Below, one piece after another: positions 5,351 to 24,009 of a stretch of DNA of 25,175 bases (position 1 is its first letter; every line of letters starts with the position of its first letter). The position numbers were made by a program, and so were the translations under genes. The stretch spans positions 1 through 25,175 of IMG/VR virus record IMGVR_UViG_3300032088_000075; one strand, 5' to 3'. This DNA is from a virus. The notes under the pieces were generated by a model. That model did no database searches, was not told the DNA's origin, and saw only the letters and a list, made by a program, of their open reading frames with translations.

Positions 5351-5518
5351 ATGACTATAGTTTTTTGGGCTATTATTGTTTTTGGCACTATAGGTGCTGT
5401 AGACAGTACAATTGAATTGAATAAAGTTTGTGACAAAGAGGTTGAGGAAGGAATCTCGGCTACTGTAAAGGAATGTAAGCAGTATTACTTTGACACAAAA
5501 GTTAAAAAAGGGTGGTAA
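5351..5518 (+). CDS. Small predicted membrane or exported protein (55 aa)
   Basis: A 55-aa ORF beginning with a good ribosome site (AAAAGGAG, six bases before the ATG). Residues 2-16 (TIVFWAIIVFGTIGA) form a short hydrophobic segment, followed by a charged domain with two cysteines, Cys28 and Cys43. This suggests a membrane-anchored or exported peptide whose cysteines could pair in the periplasm. It lies between two terminators, so it is either expressed by read-through from the capsid operon or from a promoter I cannot see. The second terminator overlaps its stop codon. I do not recognise the family. It could be a lysis or envelope-related peptide, but nothing here proves that. Confidence 0.6.
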   Translation: MTIVFWAIIVFGTIGAVDSTIELNKVCDKEVEEGISATVKECKQYYFDTKVKKGW

Positions 5519-5531
5519 CACCCTTTTTTTT
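5504..5531 (+). terminator. Terminator overlapping the stop codon of the 55-aa gene
   Basis: AAAAAAGGGTG, loop GTAA, CACCCTTTTTTT: a stem of at least seven pairs with a GNRA-type tetraloop and a T-run. The TAA stop codon of the small gene forms the last three bases of the loop. Confidence 0.9.
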
Positions 5532-5551
5532 ATTATTAGTGATTTAAGTTG

Positions 5552-5559
5552 TATAAATA
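5552..5559 (+). promoter_or_regulatory. Late promoter TATAAATA at the tail-tube-like gene
   Basis: An exact late octamer. The first T is 13 bases before the A of the ATG at 5565, so by T4 geometry transcription would start at the start codon itself. No ribosome site is present, which fits a leaderless mRNA. Confidence 0.75.
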
Positions 5560-5564
5560 ACTAT

Positions 5565-6023
5565 ATGACTACTGCAAATAAAAACTTTTTAAGTCCTACG
5601 GGGTTTCAATTTAAGATCGATTCCACTCAATATGCAAATGTTGAGTATTTTTGTACAGCCGTAACACTTCCCGACTTATCATTAGGAGAAGCGCCGAATC
5701 CTTATAAAGGGTCTAATATAGCTTTTACTGGTGATAGGATCGCTTTTGGTGATCTTGCTATAAGATTTAATGTGACTGAAGATATGGAAAACTATATCGA
5801 GATGTTTAATTGGATGCACAATATAATTGGCCAAGGTGAAAAATTTAAGTCTGACGCAACATTGTCGATTTTAAGTAGCCACAACAACGTCACTAAGGAA
5901 ATTTCTTTCAAAGACTGTTTTCCTACCAGTCTATCAGCTGTCGAGTTTTCAACACAGCAAACAGATATAGAATACTTACAAGCTGACGTGACATTAAAGT
6001 ATACATACTTCGAAATCAAGTAA
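5565..6023 (+). CDS. Tail-tube-fold structural protein (gp3 slot)
   Basis: A 152-aa protein starting MTTANKNFLSPTGFQFKI. The NFLSPTGF opening, the FCTAVTLPDLSLGEAP segment, GDRIAFGDLAIRFNVTEDMENYIEMFNWM (residues about 61-89) and the ending KDCFPTSLSAVEFS ... ADVTLKYTYFEIK follow the tail tube pattern also seen in gp19 (compare GCFPTNLSTIELS and EEFTVELQVQYW there). So it is probably a gp19 paralogue acting as tube terminator, initiator or completion protein. In marine T4-like phages the gene in this slot, between 23 and uvsY, is often annotated gp3 (tail completion and sheath stabiliser). I chose ATG 5565 over an upstream in-frame TTG at 5490 because the family N-terminus begins there. Confidence 0.75.
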   Translation: MTTANKNFLSPTGFQFKIDSTQYANVEYFCTAVTLPDLSLGEAPNPYKGSNIAFTGDRIAFGDLAIRFNVTEDMENYIEMFNWMHNIIGQGEKFKSDATLSILSSHNNVTKEISFKDCFPTSLSAVEFSTQQTDIEYLQADVTLKYTYFEIK

Positions 6024-8037: not shown

Positions 8038-8415
8038 ATGGAAACAATCGAATCAGTAGACGTAAGACATTTTAAACTAACTAATGGCGAGAATATAATT
8101 TGCTATGTTCAATCTACCACTGAGCATGCATTCATTGTAGAACGGCCTGCGGCCGTGCAGGCTTCGCCTGCTGGAATTTGGAGTTTTGTTGATTGGTTTC
8201 CATTCTCTGACAAGAAGATATATAAGCTCATGAAGAGGTTTGTCATTAACCATACTGAGGTGGTGACTGAGACAAAGGAGTCATATATTAAGTATTCATG
8301 TCATGATGAAATTAAAGATATATCATATGATACTGATGAATACTCTGATGAATACTCTGATGTGGAATATGATATGTACGATATTGATACATCTGATAAG
8401 AAAACGGTGCATTAA
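8038..8415 (+). CDS. Sm-like (LSm-fold) small protein, copy 1, with acidic tail
   Basis: A 125-aa protein. Residues about 9-80 (RHFKLTNGENIICYV ... FIVERPAAV ... SFVDWFPFSDKKIYKL ... FVINHTEVV) show the five-strand pattern of a small Sm/SH3-like barrel family common in marine T4-like phages, and align with the protein at 22432 over KLTNGENIICYV versus RLTTGDEVICNV. The last 40 residues are very acidic and include a direct repeat, DEYSDEYSD. Function is unknown; Sm-like folds often bind RNA, but that is inference. The gene starts right after the uvsW stop. It contains two unusual GC-rich hairpins (8142-8171) and is covered by a promoter firing on the opposite strand. Confidence 0.75.
   Translation: METIESVDVRHFKLTNGENIICYVQSTTEHAFIVERPAAVQASPAGIWSFVDWFPFSDKKIYKLMKRFVINHTEVVTETKESYIKYSCHDEIKDISYDTDEYSDEYSDVEYDMYDIDTSDKKTVH
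8142..8171 (+). other. Back-to-back GC-rich hairpins inside the Sm-like gene
   Basis: ACGGCC-TGC-GGCCGT is followed immediately by GCAGGC-TTC-GCCTGC. The central GCAGGC can instead pair with the GCCTGC at 8145-8150, so two mutually exclusive folds are possible. The patch is far richer in GC than its surroundings. Confidence 0.6.
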
Positions 8416-8451: not shown

Positions 8452-8480
8452 ATTATATCACGCTTTTTGCGGTTTGTACA
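8452..8480 (-). promoter_or_regulatory. Leftward (antisense) early-type promoter
   Basis: On the minus strand, GTGTACA (-35 hexamer TGTACA, 8480-8475), 17 bases, then TATAAT (8457-8452). It matches the phage's own promoter family in every fixed position. Transcription would begin near 8445 and run antisense to the first Sm-like gene and uvsW. No recognisable minus-strand gene lies downstream. Confidence 0.75.
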
Positions 8481-9152: not shown

Positions 9153-10214
9153 ATGAAAGTAGCTATTTTAAATGATACACACTGTGGTGTAAGAAATTCA
9201 TCAGACATTTTTTTAAGATATCAAGAAAGTTTTTATGAAGAGATATTTTTTCCGTATTTAAAAGAGAACAATATTAAAAACATTCTGCATCTGGGAGACT
9301 ACTATGAGCACAGAAAATTCGTCAACTTTAAAGCACTCAATGCTAATCGCAAGCATTTTCTTGAGCCTATGCGTGATGCCGGCATTACCATGGATATTAT
9401 ACCCGGAAATCATGATGTCTATTTCAAAAACACTAACGAGTTGTGCAGCCTTAAAGAGTTGCTTGGTTATTTTACCACTAATGTAAATATCATTATGAAG
9501 CCTACTGTACTAGACTATGATGGTTTAGGCGTTGCTGTGATTCCGTGGATCAATAATGCTAACTATAAAGAGTACGTTGATTTTGCTATGAAATGTAAAG
9601 CTCCTATATTAGGCGCGCACTTAGAACTAGCTGGTTTTGAAATGATGGCAGGTATTACTAATCCACATGGAATGAACGCTGAAATATTTTCGCGGTTTGA
9701 AAAGGTGTTATCTGGTCATTTCCATACAAGATCGCATCAAGCTAATGTAGATTATTTAGGTTCTCAATTTGAATTTACTTGGGCAGACGTTGATGATCCA
9801 AAGTATTTCCATATACTTGATACAGAAACAAGAGAGGTCACCGCCGTACGTAATCCCATTACTATGTTTAAAAAAATCGTATATGATGACAGTAAAACTG
9901 ATTATGATACTTTTGATTTTACTGACTGCGAGCATAAGTTTATTAAGTTAATAGTATTGGCTAAAAATGATTTATACATGTTCGACAAATTCGTTGATAA
10001 GCTGCAAGGTATAGAAACTCACGAGTTAAAAATAGCCGAAAGTTTTGAGGAATATTTAGGTGAAAGCGTTGAAGATGAAAAGGTATCGCTAGAGGATACC
10101 GCTGTGCTATTAGATTCTTACGTAGAAGCAGTTGATACTGACTTAGATAAAGATCATTTAAAAATTGAATTGAGAAAGCTTTATACCGAAGCGCAAAACT
10201 TAGAGGTAGTATGA
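9153..10214 (+). CDS. 47: Recombination nuclease subunit gp47 (Mre11-like)
   Basis: At 353 aa it is close to T4 gp47 (339 aa). It is the metallophosphoesterase subunit of the gp46/gp47 complex, which resects DNA ends for recombination and helps degrade host DNA. Metal-binding motifs are intact: LNDTHCG (Asp8, His10), HLGDYYEHR (Asp49), PGNHD (Asn86-His87-Asp88), GAHLE in the middle and GHFHTRS further on. It begins one base after the gp55 stop, without a ribosome site, so it is probably translated by coupling. Its TGA overlaps the ATG of gp46 (ATGA), which fits the two subunits being made together. Confidence 0.96.
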   Translation: MKVAILNDTHCGVRNSSDIFLRYQESFYEEIFFPYLKENNIKNILHLGDYYEHRKFVNFKALNANRKHFLEPMRDAGITMDIIPGNHDVYFKNTNELCSLKELLGYFTTNVNIIMKPTVLDYDGLGVAVIPWINNANYKEYVDFAMKCKAPILGAHLELAGFEMMAGITNPHGMNAEIFSRFEKVLSGHFHTRSHQANVDYLGSQFEFTWADVDDPKYFHILDTETREVTAVRNPITMFKKIVYDDSKTDYDTFDFTDCEHKFIKLIVLAKNDLYMFDKFVDKLQGIETHELKIAESFEEYLGESVEDEKVSLEDTAVLLDSYVEAVDTDLDKDHLKIELRKLYTEAQNLEVV

Positions 10215-11926
10215 TATATTTTAAATCGGTTTCTTGGAAGAATTTTCTTTCGACTGGTAATGATACAATTAAGGTACAATTAGATCGAACTCCGTCAACC
10301 CTTATTGTTGGCTCAAATGGTGCAGGTAAATCCACTATGCTAGATGCATTATCCTTTGGATTATTCGGTAAGCCACATCGTGACATTAAGAAAGATCAAA
10401 TGATTAATAGTATCAATAAGAAAGGCGCTATTGTTGAAGTTGAGTTTAACATAGGAAACTCGGAATTTAGAATTTTGCGTGGCATTAAACCTAACAAGTT
10501 TGAGATATGGCAAAATAATAACATGATAAATCAAGCATCAAATGCTAGAGACTATCAAAAATTCTTAGAACAAAACATCCTTAAGTTAAATCATAAGTCA
10601 TTTCATCAGGTAGTTGTGTTAGGAAGTAGTTCATTTATTCCTTTTATGCAACTCCCTGCGTGGTCTCGTAGAGCCGTCATTGAAGATCTATTGGATATCA
10701 ACATATTTAGTAAGATGAATACACTACTTAAAGAACGTAACTCTAAAATTAAAGAAGAACTATCAGAGATTAATCATTCGTTAGATCTGTATAAAACCAA
10801 GATGGACACGCAGTCTAAATATATCAAAGATTTACAAGCAATCAACAAAGACATGATTGCGTCTAAAGAAAATTCTATAGAATCGTATGAAGACGATGTA
10901 AAGAGATTGGTGAGTGAATCTGGAGAATTAGGTAAGAACCTTGATGCTTTAACAGAGATTGAAAATAAAACGCATGACGAGCTATCACGAAAAGTTTCAG
11001 ACATTAAATCTGAGGATCGGGTGTTTAAGTCCAAAATAAAGGACCTAGTAGGACAAGCTAAATTTTTTGAAGAGAACGAAATATGTCCTACATGTGATCA
11101 AGACATTGACATTAAAATTAAAACCAATAGGTTGGATCATATCAAAGCGTCTGCTGTAAATATACAACAGGGTATGAAACAATTGTCTGAAGATAACGAA
11201 TCATGCACAAATGATCTGTTAAAATGTCAAACAAATATAAAAGAGTTGGTAAGTAAGCAACGTAAAATTAATTCAAATAACGATAAAATTAATTTAATGC
11301 AGCAAGAAATAGAAAAGATTCAGAAAGAAATCGGCAATCTGTTGCAATCGTCTGGTGATATAAAAGCAGCAAAGGATGACCTAAGTAGCTATAGGGATGC
11401 GAAGGATAGTGTCACTGAAAAGAAGCTAGCATATGTAGAGGAAAGAACGTACAACGAAGTTATAGGCGAAATGCTCAAGGATACTGGCATTAAGACTAAG
11501 GTAATAAAGCAGTATCTTCCTGTTATGAATAGGCTCATTAATCAGTATCTCCAAGTACTTGATTTCTTTGTGGCATTCCATCTTGATGAAAATTTTACCG
11601 AAACTATTAGATCACGTCACCGTGATGCATTTAACTATGCGTCGTTCAGTGAAGGTGAGAAGCAAAGAATTGATTTGTCTTTATTATTTACTTGGAGACA
11701 AATCGCCAAGATGAAGAACTCTGCTTCTACTAACCTACTCGTACTTGACGAAACCTTTGATTCTTCTTTGGATCATGACGGAATTGATAATCTAACTAAG
11801 ATCCTAAACACTCTTGAAGATGGTACCAACGTCTTTATCATATCACATAAGGGTGATATATTAGAGAATAAGTTTAGATCTAAGATCGAATTTATCAAAG
11901 AACGTAATTTTTCTAAGATCAAATAG
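10211..11926 (+). CDS. 46: Recombination nuclease subunit gp46 (Rad50-like ATPase)
   Basis: A 571-aa SMC/Rad50-type ATPase (T4 gp46 is about 560 aa), partner of gp47. Walker A is GSNGAGKST at residues 34-42. Long coiled-coil arms follow (about 170-430), with a zinc hook CPTC at 292-295 at their tip. The signature motif FSEGEKQRI lies near 479-487 and Walker B LLVLDETFDSSLD near 508-520. ISHKGD near the end is the switch-histidine region. All elements of an active ATPase are present. It overlaps gp47 by four bases. About 120 untranslated bases follow before the next gene, containing a promoter but no clear terminator. Confidence 0.97.
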   Translation: MIYFKSVSWKNFLSTGNDTIKVQLDRTPSTLIVGSNGAGKSTMLDALSFGLFGKPHRDIKKDQMINSINKKGAIVEVEFNIGNSEFRILRGIKPNKFEIWQNNNMINQASNARDYQKFLEQNILKLNHKSFHQVVVLGSSSFIPFMQLPAWSRRAVIEDLLDINIFSKMNTLLKERNSKIKEELSEINHSLDLYKTKMDTQSKYIKDLQAINKDMIASKENSIESYEDDVKRLVSESGELGKNLDALTEIENKTHDELSRKVSDIKSEDRVFKSKIKDLVGQAKFFEENEICPTCDQDIDIKIKTNRLDHIKASAVNIQQGMKQLSEDNESCTNDLLKCQTNIKELVSKQRKINSNNDKINLMQQEIEKIQKEIGNLLQSSGDIKAAKDDLSSYRDAKDSVTEKKLAYVEERTYNEVIGEMLKDTGIKTKVIKQYLPVMNRLINQYLQVLDFFVAFHLDENFTETIRSRHRDAFNYASFSEGEKQRIDLSLLFTWRQIAKMKNSASTNLLVLDETFDSSLDHDGIDNLTKILNTLEDGTNVFIISHKGDILENKFRSKIEFIKERNFSKIK

Positions 11927-11991: not shown

Positions 11992-12020
11992 TGTACAATC
12001 GACTAAAACCATAGTATAAT
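11992..12020 (+). promoter_or_regulatory. Early-type promoter for the VWA-metallopeptidase gene
   Basis: TGTACA at 11992-11997, 17 bases, TATAAT at 12015-12020. A 12-base perfect palindrome, TTTTCGCGAAAA (11977-11988), ends three bases before the -35 box and could be a regulator site. Confidence 0.87.
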
Positions 12021-12048: not shown

Positions 12049-14205
12049 ATGTATCACAATTCAAGCCTCCCAAAGCTACTAGCGAAAGAGAATCTCACGA
12101 TTCGTCATGGTAATTATCAGACCCCGTGGTTTGATATTAAAAACCGTGTTCTCGGCCTTCCTCTATGGAAGGACATGGGCAAAGACGTGTATGACTTGTT
12201 TGTAGGACATGAGGTTGGCCATGCGTTAGAAACTCCATATGAAGGATGGCATGATAGTCCTGAAAAACTTCAGGGTTGTCCTAGGTCCTACATTAATGTA
12301 ATAGAAGATGCTAGGATTGAAAGAAAAGTTAAAAGCCGATATCCTGGTTTAGTGGGTCCATTCTCGCGAGCATACGCTAATTTATTCGAAGATAACTTTT
12401 TTGGAACTAATGATATAGATATTTCAGAACTAAGAATTATCGATAAAATTAATCTTCAGGCTAAAGTTGGTGCTCACGTCAATTTAGAGTTTACTGACGA
12501 AGAACAAGTGTTTATGGATAGAGCTATGACCACTGAAGACTTTCAAGAAGTCTTAGAATTAGTTAAAGATATTGTCGCCTACGATAAAACGCAGGAAGAA
12601 GATGATGACGGTGAAACTCCAGATGAAAACAAACTTAGCGAGACTGAACAAAACGAACCAGAAGAGCAAAGTGATCCTTCACAACAAAACAGTGATGATC
12701 AACCTGAAGATGAAGAAGAAAACAATACCGATTCTTCTGGAGATGATCTAGAAGATGAAGAAGATACGACTGAATCAGACGATGCAGGTTCGGTATCTCT
12801 TGGAGATGGAGCAGATGGAGAAAACAGTACCGCTATAACCGATGAAGCTTTTAGAAAAGCTGAAAGATCATTGCTTGATACTGACGATGGTGGACAACAG
12901 ACACTTGTTGTTTCTGACATCCACAAAGAAATCAGAAAAAAGATAGTTGTTAACTTTAAAGATCTTCAAGAGGAAAGGGCAATTGCTTTCAGTTCAAACA
13001 CTGAAGAGCCGTCTTATAACATACATGTCCTAGAACAGATTACTCAGGCTGCTACTGAATACTCTGCATATATTAAGTCGACTAAAAGAAGCGTCGCAGT
13101 CGCAGTTAAAGAATTCGAAATGAGAAAGGCAGCTACTCAGTGGGCTAAAGCAACCACCGCAAAGACTGGTGTCATCGACGTAAATAAGCTCTTCTCATAT
13201 AAGACTAACGAAGACATATTCAAACAGACGACTAGACTTCATGACGCTAAAAGCCATGGAATGATGATGCTAATCGACTACTCAGGATCTATGTATGGGT
13301 CACTGCCCAATGTTTTAGATCAACTAATTCACTTAGTATTGTTCTGTAAGCAAGTTAATATCCCCTTTGATGTCTATGCATTTACAACTACAAATACTAA
13401 TATCGACTATTACGATCTTAGAAATCAGGGTTTATTGTTTGATGGCGATATGGATTTAGACGGAATATGCATGCCTCTTTTGACTTCTTCGACACTCAAA
13501 AAATCAGATTTTGAAGCTTCGATTAAAGCTCTTCATGCTAGATCTTGTGTTGAGCCTTATGCGTCAAGGAAAATAATTGGAAAATCTGAAGAGTTTGGTT
13601 CAACTCCGTTAACTCAAGCTCTAGTAATGTCTCATCATTTAATTAAGGAATTTAAAGTCAAGCACGCGATTGAAAAAATGAATTTAGTAGTTTTCTCCGA
13701 CGGAGACGCTAACAGAATTCAAACATACCAAGATAGATCCTTAGAAGATAACAAGGTTTATACTAGAGGATCGTGGAAGGGCGTCAACCTAATGATTGAT
13801 GGAAAGCTTGTAAAATCTGAAGGTAAAATCGATGCGACAGCTGCAATATTGGAAAATATAAATAAAAGACTTGCTACAAATTGCATTGGGTTCTTTATGG
13901 CTGATAGTAACAGTGATTTTAACTCAAAAGTTGATGATATAGCCGGACATCACTGGGCTCAAGACGAAAGGAAAGAAGCTCAAAAAGAGTACAGAAAAAA
14001 CAAATGTGTTGTCAAAACTAATGCTCTTGGATACAACGAATTTTATCTAATTAAAGGTGGTAATAACCTTGAAACGTCCGATGATGGTTTTGACGTTACT
14101 TCAGATCACACCAGAGGTCAGATGACAGCGGCGTTTAAAAAATACTCTAAGAGTAAAAAGCAGAACAAAGTTCTCATGACTACTTTTGGAAAGTCGGTTG
14201 CATAA
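12049..14205 (+). CDS. CobT/NorD-like protein with HExxH site and VWA domain
   Basis: A 718-aa three-part protein. Residues 1-180 contain a zincin motif, HEVGH at 54-58, and NVIEDARIERK at 83-93, where Glu86 could be the third zinc ligand; ED-RIE followed by RYPG is also typical of the CobT/NorD family N-terminus. Residues about 180-265 form an acidic, disordered linker. The C-terminal half holds a von Willebrand A domain with MIDAS residues in DYSGS (410-414), a STPLT threonine and a VFSDGD aspartate. The next gene encodes a CobS/MoxR-like AAA+ ATPase, the usual partner of such VWA proteins in metal-chelatase and protein-remodelling complexes. It probably remodels or cleaves a protein target; the substrate is unknown. 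A cobalt chelatase role is unlikely, since no other cobalamin genes are present. Confidence 0.85.
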   Translation: MYHNSSLPKLLAKENLTIRHGNYQTPWFDIKNRVLGLPLWKDMGKDVYDLFVGHEVGHALETPYEGWHDSPEKLQGCPRSYINVIEDARIERKVKSRYPGLVGPFSRAYANLFEDNFFGTNDIDISELRIIDKINLQAKVGAHVNLEFTDEEQVFMDRAMTTEDFQEVLELVKDIVAYDKTQEEDDDGETPDENKLSETEQNEPEEQSDPSQQNSDDQPEDEEENNTDSSGDDLEDEEDTTESDDAGSVSLGDGADGENSTAITDEAFRKAERSLLDTDDGGQQTLVVSDIHKEIRKKIVVNFKDLQEERAIAFSSNTEEPSYNIHVLEQITQAATEYSAYIKSTKRSVAVAVKEFEMRKAATQWAKATTAKTGVIDVNKLFSYKTNEDIFKQTTRLHDAKSHGMMMLIDYSGSMYGSLPNVLDQLIHLVLFCKQVNIPFDVYAFTTTNTNIDYYDLRNQGLLFDGDMDLDGICMPLLTSSTLKKSDFEASIKALHARSCVEPYASRKIIGKSEEFGSTPLTQALVMSHHLIKEFKVKHAIEKMNLVVFSDGDANRIQTYQDRSLEDNKVYTRGSWKGVNLMIDGKLVKSEGKIDATAAILENINKRLATNCIGFFMADSNSDFNSKVDDIAGHHWAQDERKEAQKEYRKNKCVVKTNALGYNEFYLIKGGNNLETSDDGFDVTSDHTRGQMTAAFKKYSKSKKQNKVLMTTFGKSVA

Positions 14206-14259
14206 CAGATTGAGTTATAAAGAAGCATATGCATATAACAAAATAGTCTAAAAAAAGAG

Positions 14260-14288
14260 TGTACAAACGACTAAAACTGTAGTATAAT
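14260..14288 (+). promoter_or_regulatory. Early-type promoter for the CobS-like gene
   Basis: TGTACA at 14260-14265, 17 bases, TATAAT at 14283-14288. The spacer is nearly identical to that of the promoter at 11992 (ACTAAAAC shared), suggesting co-regulation of the VWA and AAA+ genes. Confidence 0.88.
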
Positions 14289-14320
14289 GTATACATACAA
14301 AATTGATAAGGAACTATATT

Positions 14321-15442
14321 ATGAAAATTTCAACCCAAAATATTTTAAAAGATCTGGCTGCAAAGTATCCAGATCAAACTGCGTTTCGTAAGAACGTAAT
14401 TGAGTCCACGGCAAAGTCCTTGGGCTACACGGGAAAAGACTTTTATCCTATGCTTACTGCAGAAACAAGAGTCAAAATCGGCACGTACGACTTAAGCGCG
14501 TTGCTACAAACTCTAGAGGTTGATAAAAAAGTGATAGACATTTCGTCTGCTGCAAAAATGCAGTCGATTGTTAACGAAGAAAAAACGTTTGCAAAGGCGG
14601 ATCCAACATTTGTTCCATGGGGAGCATTTCACGATGTCGTTAAAATGATCAAATCACAGATGTTTTACCCAGTCTATGTTTCAGGTTTATCCGGAAACGG
14701 TAAGACTTTTATGGTAGAGCAGGCGTGTTCAAAACTAAACAGAGAGTTTATCAGGGTTCAAATTAACCCTGAAACAGACGAGGACGATTTACTTGGTGGA
14801 TTTAGACTTATTAATGGCGAGACTGTCTTTTCAAAAGGACCGGTACTTAAAGCTATGGAAAACGGCGCTATCCTTCTTCTCGATGAAATTGATAGAGCTA
14901 CAAATAAAATTATGTGTCTTCAAGGCATACTTGAAGGTAAACCTGTTTTGGTTAAGAAAACGGGTGAAACGATTGCTCCTGCGCCTGGCTTCAATGTTAT
15001 AGCAACTGCGAACACTAAAGGCAAAGGATCAGAAGATGGTAGATTTACTGCTGCTTCAATTATCGACGAAGCTTTCTTAGAAAGATTTACTGTTGCTATT
15101 GATCAGAAGTTTCCATCACCTTCTATAGAAACTAAAATACTTAATAATCATATGACTAAGTTTGGCACAGAAGACACTGACTTCGTCGAGAAGTTGGTCA
15201 CATGGGCCGACATTATTAGAAAGACTTTCTATGATGATGGAGTAGATGAAGTTATTTCAACACGAAGACTTTGCCACATTGCGCAAACGTTTTCTATTTT
15301 TAAGAATAGAGCTAAGGCTATAGATCTGTGTATTGCTAGGTTTGACGAAGATACTAAGTCTGCTTTCTTAGATCTTTACACAAAGGTCGACGATGGTGTA
15401 TTAGACGTATGCGAGGATATTAATGAAACAACCCAATTATAA
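14321..15442 (+). CDS. cobS: CobS/MoxR-like AAA+ ATPase
   Basis: A 373-aa ATPase of the MoxR/CobS branch. Walker A is GLSGNGKT at residues 122-129, Walker B LLLDEIDRA near 188-196, sensor 1 in ATANT, and the arginine-finger motif is LERF. Marine T4-like phages commonly carry this gene, usually labelled cobS after the cobaltochelatase subunit, but its role in infection is not established. Here it directly follows a CobT/NorD-like VWA metallopeptidase, so the pair probably forms a hexameric motor with a VWA adaptor. ATG 14321 has AAGGA eight bases upstream; an in-frame TTG at 14303 lacks a ribosome site and is less likely. The 3' end overlaps the next ORF by 20 bases. Confidence 0.9.
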   Translation: MKISTQNILKDLAAKYPDQTAFRKNVIESTAKSLGYTGKDFYPMLTAETRVKIGTYDLSALLQTLEVDKKVIDISSAAKMQSIVNEEKTFAKADPTFVPWGAFHDVVKMIKSQMFYPVYVSGLSGNGKTFMVEQACSKLNREFIRVQINPETDEDDLLGGFRLINGETVFSKGPVLKAMENGAILLLDEIDRATNKIMCLQGILEGKPVLVKKTGETIAPAPGFNVIATANTKGKGSEDGRFTAASIIDEAFLERFTVAIDQKFPSPSIETKILNNHMTKFGTEDTDFVEKLVTWADIIRKTFYDDGVDEVISTRRLCHIAQTFSIFKNRAKAIDLCIARFDEDTKSAFLDLYTKVDDGVLDVCEDINETTQL

Positions 15443-15767: not shown

Positions 15768-16433
15768 ATGAAAATATCAAGTGAAACTATTAGTATCCTG
15801 AAAAACTTTTCAGGAATTAATGCGAATTTAGTCTTTAAGCCTGGAAAGGAACTTAAGACTATTTCTGAAGCAAAAACCATTATGGCCAATGTGTCGATCC
15901 TCGAGGACTTTCCTCAAACGTTTGGTGTCTATGACCTTAATGAGTTTTTGTCTCTGTATAATCTTATGGATGAACCTGACCTAGAATTTAGTGATAAGTT
16001 CTTGACAATATCAGACGGTTCTCAAAGGATTAAGTACTACTATTCTGAGATTGAGATTCTTACACAACCCAGCAAAGATATCAATATGCCAGAGTGCGAA
16101 GTTATCCTAGATCTTTCGGCCACGAACCTAGATAAGATCAGGAAAGCTGCAGCAGTTCTTGGACATTCAGAATTAGCTTTTAGCAGTCGAGGTGGCGGGG
16201 TTATTGCTTCTGTATTCAACGAGAAAGATTCTACAGCGAATACATTTGACATTGATCTATGCACATCATCTACTGAAACCTTTAATTATGTCTTTAGTAT
16301 TTCTAATTTGAAAATGCTACAAGGTGATTACAAGGTATCGATTTCTTCTAAGCTAATCTCCAATTGGAGAAATGCGGATAATCCCTTAGATTATTTTATA
16401 GCTTTAGAGAAATCATCAAGTTTCGGTGTATAA
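15768..16433 (+). CDS. 45: Sliding clamp gp45
   Basis: A 221-aa clamp subunit (T4 gp45 is 228 aa). Three copies form a ring that tethers the gp43 polymerase to DNA and also activates late transcription through gp55. Family features: the N-terminal MKISSETISILKNFSGINANLVFKPG, the VYDLNEFLSLYNL segment around residues 54-66, and the C-terminal ISNLKMLQGDYKVSIS and DYFIALEKSS strands. It has its own early-type promoter and an AAAGG ribosome site. The stop codon TAA lies inside the late octamer at 16429-16436, so a late promoter overlaps the end of the gene. Confidence 0.95.
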   Translation: MKISSETISILKNFSGINANLVFKPGKELKTISEAKTIMANVSILEDFPQTFGVYDLNEFLSLYNLMDEPDLEFSDKFLTISDGSQRIKYYYSEIEILTQPSKDINMPECEVILDLSATNLDKIRKAAAVLGHSELAFSSRGGGVIASVFNEKDSTANTFDIDLCTSSTETFNYVFSISNLKMLQGDYKVSISSKLISNWRNADNPLDYFIALEKSSSFGV

Positions 16434-22431: not shown

Positions 22432-22707
22432 ATGAAAATAGTAAGATTGACAACAGGTGATGAAGTCATTTGTAATGTCGTAGAAACAGAAAATGTAGTA
22501 GCTATTACAGATGCGTTTTCTATGATTGCTACAGAGCCGGGCAAGATTGGATTTATTCCATTTATGGCCTATGCTAAAAATGAGCAATTCATAATTGATA
22601 AGAAATTTGTAGTCATGATTGTAGATCCGGTTGACGAAATTGTAGATCAAATCAGATCTATGACTAGTGGAATTGTTACGCCCCAAAAGCAAGGAATCAT
22701 AGTATGA
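22432..22707 (+). CDS. Sm-like (LSm-fold) small protein, copy 2
   Basis: A 91-aa protein: MKIVRLTTGDEVICNVVETENVVAITDAFSMI, then GKIGFIPFMAYAKNEQFIIDKKFVVMIVDPVDEIVDQIRSM. This alternating strand pattern with the LTTGDEVIC turn is a recurrent small Sm-like barrel family in marine phages, and it aligns with the protein at 8038 but lacks that copy's acidic tail. Sm-like proteins often bind RNA or regulate translation; for this family I know of no proven role. GGAG precedes the ATG and the stop overlaps the MazG start (ATGA). Confidence 0.78.
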   Translation: MKIVRLTTGDEVICNVVETENVVAITDAFSMIATEPGKIGFIPFMAYAKNEQFIIDKKFVVMIVDPVDEIVDQIRSMTSGIVTPQKQGIIV

Positions 22708-23117
22708 GTAAGAACTGGGTAGAAGACATCGAAAAGATGCAAGATAAATTTGGAACTCTTGATTGGGTATTCGATAATAAAGCAGACACTGAAAAGCTTA
22801 AAAAGTTTTTAAAGTTCCGTATTGACTTTTTGCAAGAAGAACTGGACGAAACTAAAAAAGCATATGAGACTATGGATGGTGAAGAAATCGTCGATGGTTT
22901 AATTGATCTCTGTGTTGTAGCAATCGGAACACTTGACGCTTTCAACGTTGATGCGTATAAAGCTTGGGATGAAGTTCTAAAAGCTAATATAACAAAAACT
23001 GTCGGCGTAAAAGAAGGCCGACCAAATCCATTAGGACTTCCAGACCTAATGAAACCCGAAGGTTGGAAAGCTCCATCTCACGAAGGTAACCATGGTATCT
23101 TTAACGATATTCGATAG
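22704..23117 (+). CDS. mazG: MazG-like nucleotide pyrophosphohydrolase
   Basis: A 137-aa all-alpha NTP pyrophosphatase. The metal-binding motif EExxE...ExxD is visible as Glu45-Glu46-x-x-Glu49 and Glu61-x-x-Asp64, followed by DLCVVAIGTLDAFNVDAYKAWDEVLKANITK, the family's last helix and its K-x-N-x-x-K substrate loop. It would hydrolyse (d)NTPs to monophosphates, either cleaning the nucleotide pool or, as proposed for phage MazG, altering host nucleotide signals. The C-terminal 35 residues (GRPNPLGLPDLMKPEGWKAPSHEGN) are typical of the phage subgroup. It overlaps both neighbours and is part of a nucleotide-metabolism operon. Confidence 0.88.
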   Translation: MSKNWVEDIEKMQDKFGTLDWVFDNKADTEKLKKFLKFRIDFLQEELDETKKAYETMDGEEIVDGLIDLCVVAIGTLDAFNVDAYKAWDEVLKANITKTVGVKEGRPNPLGLPDLMKPEGWKAPSHEGNHGIFNDIR

Positions 23118-24009
23118 TATATACGATAACAAAACTGATAAGCGAGTTGATTATAATTCGTTTGATGACTTTGAAAAAGTATTATACAAATTGGCCAATA
23201 GTGATAAGTATCAGAAAAAAGCTGATGCTCCTTTAATATCACCGGCCACATATAAGACCGAAACTACTCGAGCTAACGTGAATGTTGTTAGTTGGGGTGG
23301 TTTCGGCATTGTCGATGTCGATGATTATGAAGGCTCTATAGATGATATTCATGAGAAGTATTCTAAATACAAATATGTTTGCTATTCTACGGCAAGCTCA
23401 ACTAAGGCACATCCAAAGTTTAGATTAGTATTTCCATTGACGCAATGTGTTGATGCTGATAAAATCAAGCATTTTTGGTTTGCGTTAAATAAAGAAATAG
23501 GAGACATCGCAGATGCCCAAACAAAAGATCTTAGCAGAATGTACTACGTCCCTTCAAGATACAAAGGGTCGTACAACTTCATATTCACACACGATGGAAT
23601 TACCATGGATCCGAATGGACTTATGGAACAGCACAGATACGTCGTACCAAATGAATCGTTTTTCGATAAGTTACCAGACTCTATTAAAAGGAGTCTTATA
23701 CAACATCGACAAGAAAAACTCAATAACACTGACTTTTCATGGACCGGATATCAAGACTGTCCTTTTGTAAATAAGAAGCAAATCGAAGATTACAAAAAAA
23801 TTACTGGTTCAGGTTGGTATTTGCAGATGTACAAAATTATGGTATCGACCGCAGGTAATGCAGTACAACGAGGTTATCCTATCTCTGCTCGTGAAGTCGC
23901 TTGGATTTGTTCAGACCTGGACAATGACACTGGCGGTTGGTACGGAAAAAGGGATATGGTGAAAGAAGCGGAACGAGCAATTGATTTTGTTTTTAAAAAT
24001 AACATTTAG
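23092..24009 (+). CDS. Primase-polymerase (AEP)-like replication protein
   Basis: A 305-aa protein. Residues 70-80, GFGIVDVDDYE, provide an acidic D-x-D-type motif (Asp75, Asp77); 98-115, CYSTASSTKAHPKFRLVF, resembles the S-x-H/K motif II of archaeo-eukaryotic primase-like enzymes; and DLSRMYYVPSR (146-156) resembles motif III in the phage and plasmid replication versions. The C-terminal third, with ISAREVAWICSDLDNDTGGWYGKRDM, could be a PriCT-like helical domain. Together these suggest a primase-like or replication-initiator protein, but the catalytic pattern is matched only by eye. T4 relatives use a different (DnaG-type) primase, gp61, so this would be an extra enzyme. AAGG lies five bases before the ATG, and the start overlaps mazG by 26 bases. 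Confidence 0.62.
   Translation: MVSLTIFDSIYDNKTDKRVDYNSFDDFEKVLYKLANSDKYQKKADAPLISPATYKTETTRANVNVVSWGGFGIVDVDDYEGSIDDIHEKYSKYKYVCYSTASSTKAHPKFRLVFPLTQCVDADKIKHFWFALNKEIGDIADAQTKDLSRMYYVPSRYKGSYNFIFTHDGITMDPNGLMEQHRYVVPNESFFDKLPDSIKRSLIQHRQEKLNNTDFSWTGYQDCPFVNKKQIEDYKKITGSGWYLQMYKIMVSTAGNAVQRGYPISAREVAWICSDLDNDTGGWYGKRDMVKEAERAIDFVFKNNI

Follow-up and report, generated by a model that had tools for sequence, protein, structure and literature searches.

A MoxR-type AAA+ ATPase and an HExxH-bearing VWA adaptor encoded side by side in a marine T4-like phage, with a possible role in replication and recombination

Two adjacent genes of a marine T4-like myovirus, analysed here in a window of 25,175 bases that makes up virus record IMGVR_UViG_3300032088_000075, encode P0001, a VWA protein with a putative zinc-peptidase N-domain, and P0002, a MoxR/CobS/NorQ-like AAA+ ATPase. 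Sequence comparisons and structure models support the pair as a complete MoxR-type AAA+/VWA two-component machine. We lean, if only slightly, towards the interpretation that it is an ATP-driven protein-remodelling machine of the replication and recombination phase of the phage. Several features read from the sequences or the models underlie this interpretation, 1) the domains of the two proteins, 2) the invariance of the HExxH motif, a downstream glutamate and the metal ion-dependent adhesion site (MIDAS) of the VWA domain, 3) the pairing of the two genes, 4) the type of promoter that precedes them and 5) their neighbours elsewhere. The role was assigned because the gene neighbourhoods and promoters point to DNA replication and recombination; the initial annotation of this DNA had named no process.

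In the mechanism proposed, P0002 would form a MoxR-type hexameric ring and P0001 would be its adaptor, with the VWA domain as a 'finger' in the pore, a geometry borrowed from NorQD. Passages of the NorQD papers (PMC13036017, PMC9976466) describe a finger in the pore, ATP-driven rotation and stretching of a linker. Once captured by the MIDAS of P0001, a substrate protein would be worked against the N-domain as the VWA domain, turned with energy from ATP, pulls on the acidic linker. This zinc-metallopeptidase-like domain, whose zinc binding and peptidase activity are putative, would cut or reshape the substrate, probably one of the proteins at replicating or recombining DNA.

The adaptor P0001 and the ATPase P0002

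The initial annotation had described a 718-residue protein with HEVGH at residues 54-58, EDARIE and RYPG motifs, an acidic linker and a VWA domain with DYSGS. A motif script located each of them where it had been placed (HEVGH 54, EDARIE 86, RYPG 97, DYSGS 410), together with STPL at 518 and SDGD at 550, and the acidity peaked at about residues 180-260. In an alignment of 105 sequences, which counts the window protein and whose remaining rows are 29-85% identical to it, His54, Glu55, His58, Glu86, Asp87, Arg89 and Glu91 were invariant (among 41 invariant columns), as were Asp410, Ser412, Ser414, Thr519 and Asp551, so the MIDAS is complete. The invariance of the His and Glu residues is that expected of a catalytic or metal site. 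All 149 IMG/VR adaptor loci, including two (L002 and L003) that are 100% matches to the window protein, encode HExxH and, 24-34 residues further on, ED.R[IV]E, and all 30 phage-like loci from genome assemblies had HExxH with a downstream ED.RI[ED] or EDVRVE. At the motif level, the conserved HExxH and downstream Glu of P0001 are those of a gluzincin. The sequences argue that the peptidase motif is genuine and intact, contrary to the passage of Liu et al. 2021 in which the protein is called 'mistakenly annotated as a peptidase'.

The AlphaFold2 model of P0001 had a mean predicted local distance difference test (pLDDT) score of 83.4, with disorder at residues 189-257. HEVGH lay inside a helix (residues 45-61) and Glu86 inside another (residues 79-97), preceded by three short strands, an order of secondary structure that fits a small zincin but is no proof of one. 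Residues 284-718 matched the NorD VWA domain of the NorQD complex (9qh6_G, Z 16.5, root mean square deviation 4.9, 261 aligned), which tied with the MIDAS domain of human Midasin (MDN1; 8ql1_A, Z 15.6, root mean square deviation 3.5, 217 aligned). The structure predictions suggested in the initial annotation were thus borne out in the NorQ and NorD folds of the two proteins and in the motif-bearing helices, but not in a zincin match: whole-model searches of P0001 returned VWA matches only, and the absence of zincins and CobT from the list excludes nothing, the N-domain not having been searched separately. The phmmer and profile searches of the PDB with the adaptor gave nothing useful, and the solved CobT chain 9uka_G was listed solely through the acidic linker (E 2.7).

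The second gene had been described as encoding a CobS/MoxR-type ATPase, which agrees with its AAA_5 match, its match to phrog_249 ('porphyrin biosynthesis', E 7.4e-112) and its predicted fold. Walker A and B motifs are present and the C-domain is of the CbbQ_C type (25.7 bits, cut-off 20.6). The model had a mean pLDDT of 83.8, and its top solved fold was NorQ (E 8.9e-18). Together with the NorD VWA match and the full MIDAS of P0001, this fold upholds the earlier description of the two proteins as a complete MoxR-type pair. The open frame was listed from a TTG at 14303 (14303-15442) that falls in the likely ribosome-binding region, and the start is probably the ATG at 14321. A function in anti-phage defence was also considered; PADLOC gave no match for P0001 and one weak match for P0002 (E 0.012).

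The ATPase has commonly been labelled CobS. Passages of Liu et al. 2021 (PMC8651126) describe cobST clusters in tailed viruses and propose that these borrow the CobN of the host as a cobaltochelatase and so raise cobalamin output. Several of the phage and plasmid relatives have matches to the CobT N-domain and CobT_C models of Pfam (2.1e-37 and 2.5e-112 in phage SSU5), P0001 has a weak local match to the putative cobaltochelatase model TIGR02442 (E 1.4e-4, 20.5 of 779.45 bits), and phmmer scored P0002 about equally against CobS (70.3 bits) and NorQ (69.4 bits) chains. However, the curated NCBIfam cut-offs were not reached, P0002 scoring 67.5 bits against 558.55 for CobS and P0001 having no entry for the CobT model up to E 1. 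P0002 fell outside a clade of six cellular CobS proteins in the ATPase tree (support 100/99), although these came from six loci found through a motif filter and are close to each other; NorQ and CbbQ formed a distant group, and ICP2, P100 and Aeromonas were long branches. CobN was absent from the phage records of all seven relatives searched, the host genome lying outside the search, and the 5-7 kb flanks of 11 annotated loci held no other annotated cobalamin gene. A cobaltochelatase that borrows the CobN of the host is very improbable. Cobalamin synthesis was rejected on the cut-offs, the tree placement and the lack of CobN in phage records, and the doubt that the initial annotation had cast on the cobS label was justified.

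Gene linkage, promoters and neighbourhoods

A survey of co-occurrence, suggested in the initial annotation, found the adaptor gene without a linked ATPase gene only infrequently. The ATPase was present in 135 of the 149 IMG/VR adaptor loci, and in 11 more the stretch available stops no more than 350 nt from the adaptor gene. In the remaining three, the ATPase was elsewhere on the contig (L092) or the contig had none (L124, 12.3 kb, and L147, 9.0 kb). The ATPase was upstream of the adaptor in six loci (L120, L121, L122, L126, L129 and L130) and more than 1 kb away in L139 and L151. The genome-assembly loci had it in 20 of 30 cases, a count that takes no account of the flanking room in the other 10. 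The adaptor query matched 463 phage records and the ATPase query 652, of which 118 were remotely related AAA+ proteins of Listeria (70) and Staphylococcus (48) phages. Listeria phage P100, the sole such record examined, gave no adaptor relative in a search weak enough that even the ICP2 adaptor was seen at no better than 1.9e-4. The records of phage isolates were equal in number for adaptor and ATPase in Synechococcus (365), Cyanophage (61) and Prochlorococcus (24), as totals not matched record by record.

The near-identical promoters noticed earlier were confirmed: TGTACAATCGACTAAAACCATAGTATAATG before P0001 and TGTACAAACGACTAAAACTGTAGTATAATG before P0002 share 27 of 30 bases, and none of 100 shuffles gave a comparable match. 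The + strand of the window has eight TGTACA-17-TATAAT sites against a mean of 0.003 in 300 first-order random sequences, each of them 23-82 bases upstream of a start (gp55, P0001, P0002, gp45, gp43 with two, and the genes at 22432 and 24993). No TGTACA-type site precedes gp20-gp23 in the window. The promoter type of P0001 and P0002 is thus that of the polymerase, clamp and gp55 genes and not that of gp20-gp23. The motif TATAAATA, which we take to be the T4 late motif, was upstream of gp20 (348) and hsp20 (18957) and also within genes, and was not directly before gp22 or gp23. A looser promoter pattern, counted with no control in sets that may include L001 and L082-L085, preceded 90 of 149 adaptor and 102 of 137 ATPase orthologues. 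A ninth TGTACA-17-TATAAT site (8452-8480) lies on the - strand and points leftward between gene 8038-8415 and gp55, where no leftward gene was recognised.

A genome scan returned proteins from Marinobacter, Zhongshania, Thiocystis and Thiorhodococcus with HEAAH, HESAH or HEASH, ED[IV]RIE, an acidic linker and a VWA domain. One such relative matched 1169 plasmid records, 968 of them conjugative, mostly in part, with 80% query coverage in one place in 6 records. When the T4-type N-domain was compared by hhalign with ten plasmid and phage N-domains, the probability was 99.0 (E 2.6e-18) and the HExxH and EDxRIE columns were aligned.

The plasmid neighbourhoods consist of an AAA ATPase, SSB, Bet, lambda exonuclease, DUF3150 and VWA on the IncC plasmid pSH111_166; RecT, lambda exonuclease, AAA, DUF3150, VWA and toprim on a Marinobacter MOBH plasmid; SSB, RecT, lambda exonuclease, a MoxR ATPase, DUF3150 and a VWA gene interrupted by IS2 on the IncT plasmid Rts1; and YqaJ, AAA, DUF3150, VWA and toprim on an Aeromonas plasmid. 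Among the phages, the neighbours run from a ligase to a DNA polymerase in SSU5, and comprise a ligase, replication protein C, a sigma factor and DNA polymerase III in RHEph10; a helicase, primase, recombinase and DNA polymerase III in Stenotrophomonas phage BUCTxx99; a primase, helicase and DNA polymerase in ICP2; and two endonuclease subunits, the sliding clamp and the clamp loader in Ochrobactrum phage OC. P-SSM4 has gp47-gp46 and gp45, as in the window. Replication or recombination genes were thus nearby in 10 of the 11 annotated VWA-adaptor loci (P-SSM4 included), and weakly so in the other, CRP-810. HExxH was kept in the IncC, Marinobacter, Rts1, SSU5, RHEph10, CRP-810, ICP2, Ochrobactrum OC (HESAH), Aeromonas (HEGAH) and P-SSM4 (HEVGH) proteins; the Aeromonas copy has Asp at the Glu86 position. 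The DUF3150 gene adjoins the VWA gene on all four plasmids (L200:5633-6910, L201:5076-5990, L202:5480-6913 and L203:4918-5886), and its product may be a third component; the IncC copy had no PHROG match.

The SSB, Bet, RecT and exonuclease neighbours on plasmids and the polymerase and primase neighbours in phages fit neither cobalamin synthesis nor virion assembly. The latter, ranked second among the explanations, holds that the pair remodels and trims structural proteins in virion assembly or maturation, as the passages of Iyer et al. 2021 (PMC7824862) propose for jumbo phages. A MoxR-vWA pair that lacks the peptidase has been reported to act on the tail of Acidianus two-tailed virus, whose VWA protein Q3V4Q4 appeared in the viral fold search (E 2.5e-4), and the 25 kb of the window also contain hsp20 and the head genes. 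Nevertheless, relatives with the same motif are found on conjugative plasmids, which have no virion, and the promoter type is that of the polymerase and clamp genes, whereas TATAAATA stands before gp20 and neither occurs directly before gp22 or gp23. We consider virion assembly unlikely.

Several observations weigh against a peptidase-bearing machine of replication and recombination, 1) Pfam and PDB profile searches of the N-domain found no significant metallopeptidase, the best being Reprolysin_4 (0.15) and MPTase-PolyVal (0.23) with one member each, 2) in BUCTxx99 the architecture is retained but REVST replaces HExxH (L206:3846-5831), and ICP2 lacks a Glu at the Glu86 position, 3) no TGTACA-type site directly precedes UvsY, UvsW, gp47, gp46, gp44 or gp62, some of which are possibly co-transcribed, 4) the CRP-810 neighbourhood is an endonuclease V, an integrase and a carboxypeptidase, the first two being the sole DNA genes close by, 5) the 11 loci were chosen by hand and several are related, so that they yield no statistic, and phage DNA genes cluster anyway, and 6) in the passages available from Sullivan et al. 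2010 (PMC3037559), which place cobS in the cyanophage core, the gene is absent from 10 non-cyanophages, so T4-like replication can manage without the pair.

The window and its features

The gene order of the window by PHROG matches is tail tube, portal, head protease, scaffold, major head protein and a second tail tube gene; then UvsY, a DNA helicase (UvsW by position), gp55, gp47, gp46, P0001 and P0002; and, after P0002, a DUF3310 protein (identified by Pfam), gp45, the clamp loader subunits, RegA, Hsp20 and DNA polymerase. The features of the pair and its closest neighbours are given in Table 1. The uvsW-to-regA genes common to the window and cyanophage P-SSM4 have the same order, and the P-SSM4 counterparts of P0001 and P0002 are labelled 'peptidase' and 'cobS', with pcyA in between. 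The nearest relative of the window polymerase among the matches listed was that of 'Phage C48C1' (51% identity).

Table 1. Positions of the pair, its motifs, its promoter-like sites and neighbouring genes in the window
Feature	Position	Strand	Evidence
P0001, 718 aa: putative zinc-peptidase N-domain, acidic linker and VWA domain	12049..14205	+	phrog_459 'peptidase', E 3.5e-178
HEVGH codons (residues 54-58)	12208..12222	+	motif script; H54, E55, H58 invariant in 105 sequences
EDARIE codons (86-91); Glu86 a candidate third zinc ligand	12304..12321	+	motif script, alignment
Acidic disordered linker, residues 189-257, pLDDT < 50	12613..12819	+	motif script and AlphaFold2 model
VWA domain, MIDAS D410-x-S412-x-S414, T519, D551	13240..14202	+	alignment and fold search
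Promoter-like TGTACA-17-TATAAT before P0001, TGTACAATCGACTAAAACCATAGTATAATG	11992..12020	+
Promoter-like TGTACA-17-TATAAT before P0002, TGTACAAACGACTAAAACTGTAGTATAATG	14260..14288	+
P0002, MoxR/CobS/NorQ-like AAA+ ATPase, 373 aa from ATG	14321..15442	+	AAA_5 6.8e-22; phrog_249
Walker A GLSGNGKT codons of P0002	14684..14707	+	motif script
gp47-like SbcD subunit, neighbour	9153..10214	+	phrog_100
gp46-like SbcC subunit, neighbour	10211..11926	+	phrog_77
gp45-like sliding clamp, neighbour	15768..16433	+	phrog_223

Three further observations concern other genes of the window. The tail tube family phrog_45 was matched by two genes (3-341 and 5490-6023) that flank the head genes on either side. A 305-residue protein (23092-24009) matched the N-part of the DNA primase family phrog_9765 (2.6e-48) and, more weakly, helicase-primase families. 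The small genes 8038-8415 and 22432-22707 both matched phrog_527 and phrog_471 ('methylamine utilization') and appear to be paralogues.

Comparison with cellular adaptors and published systems

HExxH was found in none of 20 cellular CobT proteins, which have ALxxACHDxxxH, or a sequence close to it, at the aligned positions (150 genomes were searched, 35 had a CobT above the family cut-off and the best 20 loci were used). By hhalign, the N-domains of mobile elements (plasmids and phages) aligned with the cellular CobT N-domain (probability 92.8, E 4e-7, 20 clean rows), whereas the T4-type N-domain compared directly with CobT gave a probability of 0.6 and no alignment. The cellular NorD/CbbO sample consisted of two NorD proteins and one CbbO-like protein (L215-L217, where the labels NorD, CbbO-like, NorQ and CbbQ come from sequence and gene pairing). 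Neither NorD had HExxH. The CbbO-like protein (L215:2506-4881) has EDARVE and HCAAH, that is, HxxxH with no catalytic Glu, and is possibly a half-way form. As judged from these sequences, HExxH is kept by nearly all the mobile-element proteins examined and is absent from the cellular metal-insertion adaptors examined.

These comparisons also bear on whether the N-domain cuts at all. Its metal site could instead be structural or serve metal delivery, in which case the machine would remodel proteins, or perhaps insert metal, like NorQD and CobST. Most characterised MoxR-vWA systems in the passages cited (PMC7159879 and the NorQD papers) do remodel proteins or insert metals (YebA is likely to take part in peptide degradation), the site is lost in BUCTxx99, and the CbbO-like protein has kept the two His residues minus the Glu. 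On the other hand, the would-be catalytic Glu55 is invariant in the 105 sequences and would not be required for metal binding by the two His residues alone, and cellular CobT and NorD manage without HExxH. A site that does not cut thus seems rather doubtful, slightly more so than virion assembly.

The interpretation as a remodelling machine of replication and recombination has a bolder form, that of a machine common to T4-like phages, phage-plasmids, podoviruses and IncC-type plasmids that removes proteins from DNA, by stripping or cleavage, in recombination-dependent replication. It would be an analogue of SPRTN/Wss1 with p97/Cdc48 and would be active, unlike the cellular CobT, CbbO and NorD adaptors to which it is related and whose N-domains have no such site. 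This extension is speculative and probably goes too far. The names given to these genes in the rows examined were peptidase, hypothetical, CobS, porphyrin biosynthesis and VWA protein. If the pair does act on proteins at DNA, these names lead surveys of vitamin B12 metabolism in viruses astray, and a common component of replication in phages and conjugative plasmids has gone unnoticed. The auxiliary metabolic genes of marine phages named in the passages of PMC7029224 include both cobS and cobT. The parts of the literature covered, which extended to the timing of cobS expression and to an association of cobS/cobT with Bet/Exo in IncC/SXT elements, held no statement of a plasmid link or of the missing HExxH in cellular CobT.

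The initial annotation was correct as to an AAA+/VWA pair with an invariant HExxH and Glu, encoded by adjacent genes and unrelated to cobalamin synthesis, but the architecture is not novel as presented there. The passages of Iyer et al. 2021 describe a MoxR ATPase of group 2.2 jumbo phages together with a vWA protein that has a metallopeptidase fused at its N-terminus. Judged by that description and by motifs, the two-gene architecture matches that of the window, where the peptidase fold is putative. However, virion assembly or processing was proposed there, while the promoters in the window and the plasmid relatives point to replication and recombination. The MoxR ATPase of cyanophage S-CREM1 is placed in the CGN subfamily in the passages of PMC9964418. 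The cyanomyovirus phrog_459 and phrog_249 proteins (T4-GC 146 and 150 in P-SSM4) belong to the same families and occupy the same gp46-gp45 position, but the adaptors of the best-ranked isolates are about 33% identical to P0001, and P-SSM4 has pcyA between the genes.

The pair on IncC, IncT and MOBH plasmids resembles that of the window in its HEAAH and ED.RIE N-domain (HEGAH and DDGRID in Aeromonas), acidic linker, VWA domain and nearby AAA+ gene, and differs in gene order and in the DUF3150 gene beside the VWA gene. NorQ-NorD, which inserts metal into nitric oxide reductase, is the top fold for P0002 and, tied with Midasin, for the VWA domain of P0001, but the two NorD proteins lack HExxH and NorQ/CbbQ is distant in the ATPase tree. 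CobS-CobT is similar in that its N-domain aligns with those of mobile elements, and dissimilar in its lack of HExxH and the failed direct alignment with the T4-type N-domain. Relative to these systems, what is new here is the intact peptidase motif, the replication and recombination context shared by plasmids and phages, the common promoter type, and the absence of HExxH from 20 of 20 cellular CobT proteins.

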